Origin: Methanoregula sp. PtaB.Bin085
GTDB taxonomy: Archaea > Halobacteriota > Methanomicrobia > Methanomicrobiales > Methanospirillaceae
DNA length: 64,000 nucleotides
NCBI RefSeq assembly: GCF_002067035.1
Contig: NZ_MVQB01000013.1
Span: 124,001-188,000 of the forward strand
Reading direction: 5' to 3'
In this document: positions 26,421 through 32,418 of the stretch, in pieces
Layout of the letters: each line of letters opens with the position of its first letter
Numbering within the stretch: position 1 is the first letter of the stretch
Position numbers and translations under genes: made by a program
Notes under the pieces: model-generated
The model's database searches: none
What the model was told of the DNA's origin: nothing
The model's input: the letters and a program-made list of their open reading frames with translations, nothing else

Positions 26421-26552
26421 CCTCCTCATAATCCAGATGATCTATTCAGATTCTGACGAACCTTCCGGACTCATCAGTTCCGAAACGTGAGGGATGACAG
26501 GATCCCGGGCCGAGAACGGTTATCACCATTGACGGGCAATTATTCCGGGACT

Positions 26553-27782
26553 ATGGCGGCAGGAGGAAACGGACACGGGAAGGAGAAGCTTGTGATGGCG
26601 CGGTACGGGGAGCTCTTCCTGAAGAGCGAACCGGTCAAGCGCCATTTCATCGGCATGCTCCTGCGTAATATCCGGAAAGCGCTCGGAGCCGCAGGTCTGG
26701 AATGCCGGTTCGAAACCCCCCGTGGCAGGATCCTGATCTATGGCGATAATCCGGATCGGATCGCGGGGATTGTTTCGCGGATCTTCGGCATAGTGGACGT
26801 CAGTACCTGCCTCCGGACATCTCCCGATCCGGAGGAGATGAAACGGGCAGCGCTCGCCCTTGCGTCTTCCCGCCTCAAAACCGGTATGAGTTTTGCCGTC
26901 CGTGCAAAACGGCAGCACAAGACCGGCATGGACAGCCAGGAGCTGGGACGTGTTATCGGCTCATGGCTGTACGAACATATTCCCGGTCTCACCGTTGATC
27001 TTGATGATCCCGCGTATGAGATCTTTGCGGAGGTCCGCGATATCGGGGGGCTTGTGTATGATGGGCGGTTGCCGGGACCGGGCGGTCTGCCCTGGGGCAC
27101 GCAGGGCCGCGTGCTGGTCCTTCTCTCAGCTGGAATCGATTCGCCGGTTGCGTCATGGCTTGCCATGAAGCGCGGTTGCGAGGTCACCAGCCTGTACCTG
27201 GATGCAGGGCGGTGGGCCGGTGCGGACGTCACGGCTGCAGCGATTGAGAACCATCGAAGGCTCTCCCTCTGGTGTGCCGGCACTCCGCTCCCGATGGTTA
27301 TCGCGGACAGCGAACCGCTGTACGATGCGATGAGCCGGCAGAAAGTCCCGCCGCGGTACCGTTGCGTCATCTGCAAGCGTTTTATGCTCCGTGTCGCGGG
27401 ACGGCTGATGGAACACGAAGGCGCTCTTGCGGTCGTTACCGGGGAGAACCTCGGGCAGGTGGCTTCCCAGACCCTCGCGAATCTCGGTGTTGTTGCTGAC
27501 GCTGCGTCTGTCCCGGTTCTCCGACCGCTTATCACGTTCGATAAGGAAGAAACGATCGCAATCGCCCGCGGTATCGGGACGTTCGTTGCAAAGCCGGGCG
27601 ATCTTGCCTGCCGCGCTGTTCCGAAGATGCCTGCAACGGCAGCAGGGCTGAAGGAAGTGCTGGAGCACGAGCAAACGGTCGGGATTGTTGATCTTGTGGA
27701 CCATGCGGTCATCAATTGCCGGTTCATCACCGCGCTTGACGGCAGGATTGTTGATCAGATACCCCATGTCCGCGGGGAGTGA
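26553..27782 (+). CDS. thiI: tRNA 4-thiouridine synthase ThiI (archaeal type)
   Basis: The protein has an N-terminal ferredoxin-like and THUMP region (RYGELFLKSEPVKRHF; FAVRAKRQHKTGMDSQELGR). The PP-loop adenylation domain follows, with SAGIDSP, YRCVICKRFM and TGENLGQVASQTLANL. It lacks the C-terminal rhodanese domain of bacterial ThiI, as usual in archaea. It activates U8 of tRNA and may also serve thiamine sulfur transfer. I give the ATG at 26553. ATG 26595, preceded by GGGAAGGAG, is an alternative that would trim the N-terminal strand. Confidence 0.92.
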   Translation: MAAGGNGHGKEKLVMARYGELFLKSEPVKRHFIGMLLRNIRKALGAAGLECRFETPRGRILIYGDNPDRIAGIVSRIFGIVDVSTCLRTSPDPEEMKRAALALASSRLKTGMSFAVRAKRQHKTGMDSQELGRVIGSWLYEHIPGLTVDLDDPAYEIFAEVRDIGGLVYDGRLPGPGGLPWGTQGRVLVLLSAGIDSPVASWLAMKRGCEVTSLYLDAGRWAGADVTAAAIENHRRLSLWCAGTPLPMVIADSEPLYDAMSRQKVPPRYRCVICKRFMLRVAGRLMEHEGALAVVTGENLGQVASQTLANLGVVADAASVPVLRPLITFDKEETIAIARGIGTFVAKPGDLACRAVPKMPATAAGLKEVLEHEQTVGIVDLVDHAVINCRFITALDGRIVDQIPHVRGE

Positions 27783-29333: not shown

Positions 29334-30812
29334 TCACAACAGGTTCTGGACGGTGTTGATAACCGTCTTTAATGCCTTGACCCGGGAATACCATTTGTCG
29401 TCTGATTCGATGACGGTCCACGGTGCGATCTCCGTGCTCGTCCGGGCAAGCATCTCATCAACAGCCTCAGTGTAGAGATCCCATTTCTCGCGGTTGCGCC
29501 AGTCCTCGTCTGTGATCTTGTACACTTTCTGTGGATCGTTTGCCCGCTGCTGGAACCGCCTGAGCTGTTCGTCCTTGTCGATCTCCAGCCAGAACTTGAC
29601 AATACCCCCGCCGGAGGAGTTCACGAAATCCTCCTCCATCTCGTTGATCTCGCGATACGCCCGCTGCCAGTCCGTCTCTGTGCAGAAGCCCTCAACCCGC
29701 TCGACAAGAACCCTCCCGTACCAGCTCCGATCGAAGATCGCGATATCCCCTCCCTTGGGGAAATGCTTGATGAATCGTCGCAGGTAGTGGTACTGTTTCT
29801 CGTGCTCGGTCGGTGCGGCGACGGGAACGACATAATACCCCAACGGGTTCATGTACCGTGTCAGCCGCGTGATGTTGCCCCCCTTCCCTGCCGCGTCCCA
29901 GCCTTCGTACGCAATCATGAGAGGGATCTTCCGCTTGAAGAGGAGGTAGTGGAGCTCGAGCATCTCGATCTGGAGGCTTGCAAGCGACTCCTGGCACTCC
30001 TCTCTGGAATATTTTTTTTCCGGTAATGCTTTTCGTTTCACCGGATTCTTCTTTGGGAGGGGCAGATCCTTCTGTTTTGCTTTTTTTTGTTTTCCCTCCC
30101 GTATACTATCTGCCCTCTTCTCCAGGGACTTCACAATCGTACCGTAAATTTTGAGGATCGCGTATTTCCGGTCCATAGCCTCGACAATGGTCCAAGGTGC
30201 ATAATCGGTGTCGGTCTTCTCGATGAAACGGTCGATGAGCGGGAGCGAGTCCTCGTAATGCCGGTGGATGTTCCAGATCGACGGGGTGACGAGCCATGCC
30301 GTGAGCGGGTTCCGTTCGCGCTCATCGAGCCGCCGTTTCTGCTCCTCCTTGGTGATGTGCAGGAAGAATTTCAGGATGACCGTGCCGTCATCATGGAGCT
30401 GGCGCTCGAAGTTGTTGATCTGACCAACCCTTCCGGAGAGTGTTTTTTCCCATGCATGTTTCTGCATCTCTTCAGAGATGGCGCGGCTGTACCAGCCCCG
30501 TGCGAAGAGGGCGATCCTGCCGCGGGGAGGGGTCCGCAGCCAGAATCTCCAGAGGAACGGGTGTGCCCGTTCCTCCTCCGTGGGTTTTTCTATTGCATGC
30601 AGGGTAAATCCGCGGGGATCGAGCGCCTGGATGATCTCGTGGACCGCCATGGTGATCCCGGCCGTGTTCCATCCCTCAATGACGATGATAACGGGGATCT
30701 GCTGGTCGCGCAGTGACCGCTGGAGATAATTCAGGCGTTCCTTGTACGACCCGAGGGTTTTGTCATAGGATCCTTCGTCAGCTTTCTTTGTCAGGTCGCA
30801 TCTGTCAAGCAT
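29334..30812 (-). CDS. Two-domain polyphosphate kinase 2 (polyphosphate:AMP phosphotransferase type)
   Basis: The 492-aa protein consists of two PPK2 domains. The C-terminal domain (about 265-490) has intact Walker A EGWDAAGKGG and the Walker B/lid text FDRSWYGRVLVERVEGF. The N-terminal domain (about 18-235) is degenerate: EGWNTAGITMAV lacks the P-loop lysine, and FARGWYSR replaces FDRSWYGR. This layout matches class II PPK2, which phosphorylates AMP to ADP with polyphosphate. The N-terminal domain is probably structural. The family is mainly bacterial, so lateral acquisition is plausible. The 240 bp beyond its stop hold no gene. Confidence 0.9.
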   Translation of the reverse strand: MLDRCDLTKKADEGSYDKTLGSYKERLNYLQRSLRDQQIPVIIVIEGWNTAGITMAVHEIIQALDPRGFTLHAIEKPTEEERAHPFLWRFWLRTPPRGRIALFARGWYSRAISEEMQKHAWEKTLSGRVGQINNFERQLHDDGTVILKFFLHITKEEQKRRLDERERNPLTAWLVTPSIWNIHRHYEDSLPLIDRFIEKTDTDYAPWTIVEAMDRKYAILKIYGTIVKSLEKRADSIREGKQKKAKQKDLPLPKKNPVKRKALPEKKYSREECQESLASLQIEMLELHYLLFKRKIPLMIAYEGWDAAGKGGNITRLTRYMNPLGYYVVPVAAPTEHEKQYHYLRRFIKHFPKGGDIAIFDRSWYGRVLVERVEGFCTETDWQRAYREINEMEEDFVNSSGGGIVKFWLEIDKDEQLRRFQQRANDPQKVYKITDEDWRNREKWDLYTEAVDEMLARTSTEIAPWTVIESDDKWYSRVKALKTVINTVQNLL

Positions 30813-30927: not shown

Positions 30928-32109
30928 TTATCCCTTTACCGCTAGCCCGTTCTCCCGGGCGATCTCCACGAACGCCTTTGCAAGGTGCAGCGCCTGTTTA
31001 TGGGTCGTTCCGTACGTATTGAACTTCCAGACCTTCGTTGCACCGGGGATGACTCCCGTAACACCCCGTTCTTCGAGAGCACTCTGGAGGAAGTACCCCC
31101 GCTTCTTGTGCGATTCCGCGATCCGGTCGAACGATGCCGTTGTGTCAACCCGTGTCATCGTGTGCTTCCGCGGATACTCGGAGAGGCACTTCGTGCCCTC
31201 GATGGAGAGGAGCGCGTCCATGACAACCGCGTGGTTGGCGAGTTCTCGGTCGAAATGCTTTGTCCGCTGCCTGACATGCGGGAACGACGCCATCATCCCG
31301 ATCAGTGTAGCGCCCATCAGCGTGCAGCCTATCATTTCCGGCTCCTTGATTCCGAACTTACGGTTCGTTACATCGCCGACAATTGCTGTTGTGCGGAAGA
31401 CCTCTTTCTCCCGTTCTGCAGTAACGGCGAGGATGCCGGAGGGAGCCGGGGCTGCCATGCTCTTGTGGCCGGATCCGACAACAAAATCTGCGCCAAGGGC
31501 TTTGCCATCAACCGGCAGGATGCCGACCGTGTATGCGCCATTATAAACAACCGGAATATCGTACTGGTGCGCCACCTTTGCAATCGCAGCAAAATCGTGC
31601 AGGTTCCCGTACTGGTAATCAACGTGATCGATAAAGGCGAGGACCGGGGCTTTCCCCAGTTCTTTCTTCACAGCCTCGATCTTCGCTGCAGCCGCATCGG
31701 GGGTTACGAGTTTCTGGTCGTTTGCCGGGATCTCGCGTGCGACGCCACCCGCTTCTTCGATGGCCAGGAACTCGGTGTAGTGGGAAAGAGATGTCAGGAG
31801 GACCGGGTCACCCTTCTTCACGTAGGTCTGTGCAACCGCCTGGAATCCCCGGCGGGCCCCGGGGACTGTCCGGACAGCATCCATGTTCAGCCACTTTGCA
31901 ACGTCCTTGTGAAACTCGGCGATGGGAGGCTTTGCAATATAGTCGAGCCGGTTGGGCTTGCGGCAGTTGTCGCAGACGGAGTATCCATCACCGTACGCGA
32001 TGACGGCCTTCATCGCTTCGGCCGTGAGCCGCCCGCCCGCCTGTATGGGGTCGATATTGATGAAGAGCTCGTCCACCTGCCGCGCCTCGATCCCGCTTGC
32101 ACACTTCAT
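30928..32109 (-). CDS. pscS: O-phospho-L-seryl-tRNA:Cys-tRNA synthase (SepCysS)
   Basis: The 393-aa PLP enzyme has three conserved Cys positions near the N-terminus (MKCASG, YSVCDNC). It also has FIDHVDYQYGN and the PLP-lysine motif GSGHKSMAAP (Lys near 228). SepCysS converts phosphoseryl-tRNA(Cys), made by SepRS, into Cys-tRNA(Cys) using sulfide or an activated sulfur source. It is the route to both Cys-tRNA and free cysteine in many methanogens. Its ATG overlaps the stop of a 60-codon upstream gene as ATGA, indicating translational coupling. Confidence 0.95.
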   Translation of the reverse strand: MKCASGIEARQVDELFINIDPIQAGGRLTAEAMKAVIAYGDGYSVCDNCRKPNRLDYIAKPPIAEFHKDVAKWLNMDAVRTVPGARRGFQAVAQTYVKKGDPVLLTSLSHYTEFLAIEEAGGVAREIPANDQKLVTPDAAAAKIEAVKKELGKAPVLAFIDHVDYQYGNLHDFAAIAKVAHQYDIPVVYNGAYTVGILPVDGKALGADFVVGSGHKSMAAPAPSGILAVTAEREKEVFRTTAIVGDVTNRKFGIKEPEMIGCTLMGATLIGMMASFPHVRQRTKHFDRELANHAVVMDALLSIEGTKCLSEYPRKHTMTRVDTTASFDRIAESHKKRGYFLQSALEERGVTGVIPGATKVWKFNTYGTTHKQALHLAKAFVEIARENGLAVKG

Positions 32110-32288
32110 TTCAGCATCTCCTGCTTCAGGGACTGGACCTGCCGCTCGAGGTTCTCAAGGAGCCGCACCGCCTGTGCTTCCTGGTGGATATCGAACTCGT
32201 GGGAAGGAGCGGTTTCCCGGAGAAGAATACGGATATCGGTAAGAGTATAAATTGCCTGGAAGGTCATGTCGACTGCCCGTTTTGACAT
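32106..32288 (-). CDS. Small helical protein coupled to SepCysS (possible SepCysE-like partner)
   Basis: The 60-aa acidic/amphipathic protein is predicted to be mostly helix (AVDMTFQAIYTLTDIRILLRE, QAVRLLENLERQVQSLKQEM). Its stop overlaps the SepCysS start. Some methanogen SepCysS proteins carry an N-terminal extension related to SepCysE, the factor that bridges SepRS and SepCysS. A detached version of that extension is a reasonable hypothesis here, though I cannot confirm similarity. No other family is evident. Confidence 0.6.
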   Translation of the reverse strand: MSKRAVDMTFQAIYTLTDIRILLRETAPSHEFDIHQEAQAVRLLENLERQVQSLKQEMLK

Positions 32289-32418
32289 CGGTTCACCTGC
32301 CTAGAGTATACGCACCGGAAAATTAAGTACTTGCGCCGATCCCGGGCAGGCTCACTGATATGTATCTGTGTTTCATGGTCTTTATTTGCCAAACGCCAAT
32401 ATACGGATAAGCCGGTGA

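Follow-up and report, generated by a model that had tools for sequence, protein, structure and literature searches.

The window analysed here, a stretch of 64,000 nucleotides of DNA from Methanoregula sp. PtaB.Bin085, carries two genes on its minus strand whose ends overlap: a 60-codon open reading frame and, directly 3' of it, the gene for SepCysS (Table 1). The TGA stop of the short gene and the ATG start of SepCysS share four bases (...CTGAAATGAAG...). This overlap had been described in the original prediction, which did not give the strand, and it is borne out here. Mukai et al. 2017 (PMC5424206) gave genes of this kind the name SepCysSn, which we use throughout.

Table 1. Genes and signals at the SepCysSn locus (positions in the window)
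Feature	Position	Strand	Remarks
SepCysSn gene	32106..32288	minus	60 aa, from ATG to TGA stop (32106-32108); homologue of the SepCysE N-terminal domain, predicted two-helix hairpin
SepCysS gene	30928..32109	minus	393 aa; matches two NCBIfam models
Stop/start overlap ATGA	32106..32109	minus	4 bases; couples SepCysSn and SepCysS
Shine-Dalgarno-like AGGTGA	32293..32298	minus	upstream of SepCysSn start; motif in 42/51 loci
Shine-Dalgarno-like AGGAG	32118..32122	minus	within SepCysSn end, upstream of SepCysS start; motif in 50/51 loci
PPK2 protein gene	29334..30812	minus	492 aa; two PPK2 (polyphosphate kinase 2) stretches; just 3' of SepCysS
ThiI gene	26487..27782	plus	tRNA sulfur transferase type, THUMP domain; about 3 kb past far end of SepCysS

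The larger gene product matches PRK09331 with an E-value of 4.7e-175 and TIGR02539 with 373.8 bits, against a cut-off of 365.25 for the latter. It keeps the three conserved cysteines of SepCysS, which we take to be positions 64, 67 and 272. The PLP lysine is kept as well, a lysine standing at the position of Lys234 as given by Chen et al. 2017 (PMC5688128). In one alignment with the SepCysS of a SepCysE-bearing genome (L196), the window protein has 7 residues fewer in its N-terminal chain, a gap located in the chain that covers the tRNA in M. jannaschii, and an insertion of 8 residues around VGDVTN. A sulfur link between the nearby ThiI and SepCysS is possible. The genome from which the window is taken has a SepRS gene and also encodes CysRS.

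Conservation and coupling of SepCysSn

Homologues of SepCysSn were found in 208 of 232 genomes of Methanomicrobiales, spread over 38 of 40 genera (E<=0.01), and SepCysS itself in 214 of the 232 genomes (E<=1e-60). To describe the gene order we used 51 loci in which the two genes are split: 30 best matches belonging to the genus or family of the window, 20 loci chosen for spread over five of the six families of Methanomicrobiales, and one further split locus (L066) met among stretches fetched as fused. SepCysSn lies directly 5' of SepCysS in all 51, with an overlap of 4 bases in 48 and of 1 base in 3, so that the pairing of the two genes, whose conservation across the order had been named as a check on the original prediction, holds throughout this set. 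Some genomes have two such split pairs (L162 and L046 in G023, L158 and L159 in G268).

A Shine-Dalgarno-like motif precedes SepCysS in 50 of the 51 loci, compared with 153 of 1020 control stretches, an excess to which conserved Glu codons at this place may contribute in part. Between the window gene and 13 near relatives, dN ranges from 0.07 to 0.14 and dS from 0.56 to 1.75. SepCysSn is thus under purifying selection, and SepCysSn and SepCysS are made from one coupled unit. A chance open reading frame 5' of SepCysS might well be as short as this one and, like the single 60-residue sequence, find nothing in either Pfam or the PDB and a single chance hit in NCBIfam (E 0.11), but such an explanation is refuted by the homologues in 208 genomes, by a dN far under dS and by the conservation of both the overlap and the Shine-Dalgarno-like motifs.

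Homology to the N-terminal domain of SepCysE

Since searches with the single sequence return next to nothing, the origin of the protein had to be sought with family profiles. A profile of 27 split SepCysSn proteins (A1), searched against 177,635 PDB sequences, found as its best match MJ1481, the SepCysE of Methanocaldococcus jannaschii, over residues 54-93 and with a borderline E-value of 0.025. For direct comparison we used a set of SepCysE proteins from the phylum to which a Methanocaldococcus record belongs, where 36 of 36 genomes yielded one. Aligned with this set by hhalign, A1 scored 31.9, with residues 6-52 of SepCysSn aligning to SepCysE residues 49-95, whereas 200 column-permuted versions of A1 had a mean of 10.9 and a maximum of 17.6, none reaching 31.9. 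The two families also have in common the turn APxHxL of SepCysSn, present in most SepCysE proteins. The profile comparison with SepCysE, which the original prediction had left to be made, therefore comes out on its side.

The predicted structure of the 60-residue protein is a helix hairpin with helices at 3-25 and 34-58 (pLDDT 96.3, pTM 0.78), in agreement with the expectation of a free helical protein of this length. Searched with Foldseek against 350,542 PDB chains, it retrieved SepCysE chains at all of ranks 1 to 5, with probabilities of 0.99-1.00 and weak E-values of 0.17-0.32; ranks 1 and 2 superpose over 49 columns with an rmsd of 0.9 and 1.0, ranks 3 to 5 over 61 columns with an rmsd of 5.4. 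By VIA-align, SepCysE stands at rank 25 with a Z of 7.8 over all 60 residues, and unrelated helical hairpins reach up to Z 9.2, so the fold by itself is not decisive.

These results bear on a second explanation, that an unrelated helical-hairpin protein, for example a regulator or a chaperone, has become coupled to SepCysS by accident. Two-helix hairpins are common, and unrelated ones equal or exceed SepCysE by VIA-align Z. The explanation is nevertheless disfavoured and we regard it as very improbable, given the profile match with its permutation control, the turn held in common with most SepCysE proteins, the five leading Foldseek ranks and the fusion of this domain to SepCysS in relatives. 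The profile, the permutation test and Foldseek agree that SepCysSn and the N-terminal domain (NTD) of SepCysE are homologous.

The fused counterpart and the direction of change

A second, weak match to the 60-residue protein in its own genome (E 0.14) is the N-terminal extension of another SepCysS, encoded on a different contig by a frame of 464 aa (G000 contig C9, 4493-5857; loci L052 and L166). Fused genes of this kind were collected at 19 loci from 17 genomes, with L002 counted together with its duplicate L052; the known spread of the fused paralogue is these 17 genomes. Counted by protein match, the free form is strongly matched in 13 of the 17 genomes as well (E 2.9e-9 or lower). G196, G213, G214 and G216 gave no match to it, and the SepCysS copies found in these four are fused.

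The split and fused domains match each other by hhalign with an E-value of 4.1e-11, so the N-terminal extensions of SepCysS, to which the original prediction had pointed as relatives, do belong with the split domain, and their link to SepCysE runs through intermediates. Compared directly with SepCysE, the extensions of the fused paralogue of Methanomicrobiales are matched or exceeded in score by 52 of 200 permutations, and SepCysE is absent from the 8 PDB matches of their profile search; intermediates from other families were therefore needed. These are mixed-sequence fused proteins in other families of the phylum, for example LEDLREILRETAPDHRLDEGQ. Nine of them, taken together, score 35.7 against SepCysE, a value that none of 60 permutations attains, 81.0 against the split family and 95.1 against the other fused extensions. 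Sequence profile, predicted structure, gene linkage and the presence of the same domain on fused SepCysS all uphold the proposal that the short gene encodes a detached domain related to SepCysE.

In the structure predicted for a fused protein encoded in another genome (mean pLDDT 78.7; L144 was left out because of unread bases), the hairpin occupies residues 2-21 and 30-47 and is followed by a low-confidence stretch at 49-54, as expected of a linker; further low-confidence stretches, at 77-80, 97-113 and 295-319, lie in the enzyme part. The two forms also differ in their surroundings. A tRNA-Cys gene stands 47 bases upstream of the fused SepCysS in the genome of the window, and tRNA-Cys is found 3-75 bases upstream of the fused gene in 10 of the 19 loci. 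None was found at the 21 of the 51 split loci that were scanned, within the 2.2-3.3 kb fetched for each, and the only tRNA gene in the window itself is one for tRNA-Leu.

Which form came first was approached with trees of SepCysS computed without the domain. In the second tree, made from a chosen subset of 51 rows and rooted on 11 SepCysS from SepCysE-bearing genomes, the split forms cluster together (94/88) within a grade made up of fused ones. The first tree, which had a single outgroup row from a SepCysE-bearing genome and from which L022 was dropped as too short, gave a similar topology. A fusion in 'modern archaea' has been suggested by Mukai et al. 2017 (PMC5424206). Our trees suggest that a fused gene may have been cut once to give the split form, with the opposite arrangement, a constraint holding all fused forms together, not rejected by the AU test (p 0.252).

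A probable anchor apart from its bridge

The pathway through SepRS and SepCysS is regarded as an ancient means of making and encoding cysteine. In methanogens that have SepCysE, SepRS and SepCysS are held together so that wrongly charged Sep-tRNA stays unreleased. According to Chen et al. 2017 (PMC5688128), the parts of M. jannaschii SepCysE have separate tasks: the N-helix (residues 1-24) binds SepRS, and its deletion abolishes binding; the NTD (residues 35-101) forms a dimer that binds the SepCysS dimer; and the C-terminal domain (residues 111-213) binds tRNA. The same paper describes deletions of SepRS loops, of which single ones had no significant effect on SepCysE binding and double ones did.

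Of these parts, the window protein covers the NTD only. The SepRS-binding N-helix is absent, as only 5 residues precede the NTD-aligned part (6-52), and the C-terminal tRNA-binding domain is absent too, the protein stopping at residue 60, two residues past its second helix. Changes are also seen on the side of SepRS. We searched 17 genomes of Methanomicrobiales for it, dropping L185 and L191 (wrong or truncated frame), with G158 yielding no locus, and defined and counted the loop motifs by eye on the alignment. The motifs of loop 1 (a proline followed by [IV]x[DN]E) and loop 3 ([LF]x[ST]N) both occur in 14 of 14 SepRS sequences from SepCysE-bearing genomes, but neither occurs in any of the 14 readable SepRS sequences of Methanomicrobiales, in which loop 2 is 2-3 residues shorter. 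General divergence of SepRS may account for the lost motifs; since the two groups of SepRS differ throughout and single-loop deletions are tolerated in M. jannaschii, we take the loop loss as supporting evidence only. A Methanocaldococcus SepCysE query, which recovers SepCysE from all 36 genomes searched in its own phylum, found no match in any of the 232 Methanomicrobiales genomes, and as it misses SepCysSn too, this is weak evidence for the absence of SepCysE, of which a diverged form could escape. With the SepRS-binding helix absent and the docking loops of SepRS changed, the known bridge between SepRS and SepCysS seems to be missing on both sides. The bridging and minimal-channelling function that the original prediction had attached to the domain is accordingly not sustained: what is left of SepCysE is the part that binds SepCysS.

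One might still suppose that SepCysSn joins SepRS to SepCysS through another surface, with tRNA-Cys channelled in a minimal transsulfursome, as was first proposed. Its homology to the SepCysE NTD and the presence of SepRS in the genome speak for such a bridge. Against it stand the absence of both the helix by which SepCysE binds SepRS and the tRNA-binding domain, and the motifs lost from SepRS loops 1 and 3, and we consider it improbable.

SepCysSn is instead probably a stand-alone subunit, predicted from its homology to bind SepCysS and to do so without a bridge to SepRS. Like the NTD of SepCysE, it would dimerise on the two-fold axis of the SepCysS dimer, and translational coupling would supply it at about 1:1 with SepCysS. 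As a subunit it could then support the structure or the activity of SepCysS, adding stability or shaping the tRNA entry site. In the sister paralogue encoded by this genome, the domain would play the same part in cis, tethered by a flexible linker.

A wider reading, which we offer as a conjecture with somewhat less than even prospects, is that the anchor performs an essential function on SepCysS that is independent of tRNA channelling, that the lineage, across the order, dropped the bridge (SepRS helix, docking loops and tRNA-binding domain) and kept the anchor, free or fused, and that the split and fused SepCysS found side by side have become specialised as two enzymes, of which one is linked to tRNA-Cys. 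What seems to deserve further attention is that the anchor is kept and the bridge is not: this separates two roles that SepCysE normally combines, the holding of SepRS and an action on SepCysS; split and fused versions in one genome provide a natural comparison.

Among known systems, SepCysE (MJ1481; PDB 3WKR, 5X6B and 5X6C) shares the NTD sequence profile and the hairpin fold with the window protein, but is 216 aa long and, as described in PMC5688128, also has an N-helix that binds SepRS and a C-terminal domain that binds tRNA; the window protein lacks both. SepCysSN, the fused form of PMC5424206, bears the same domain on the N-terminus of SepCysS, and one is encoded in the genome of the window. 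It differs from the free form in being one polypeptide with a linker, in a turn that is mostly LPTG rather than TAPxH, and in the tRNA-Cys upstream of 10 of 19 fused loci compared with 0 of 21 split loci scanned. The account of SepCysSn in PMC5424206 was repeated and extended in an update of that work (PMC8762117, 2022) and restated in a 2022 review (PMC9499178); Methanomicrobiales has 0 occurrences in the main text of PMC5424206 and PMC8762117. Set beside SepCysSn as the available text of PMC5424206 presents it, the window gene shows no distinguishing feature: it is likewise separate and directly 5' of SepCysS, and so belongs to a kind of gene already described.
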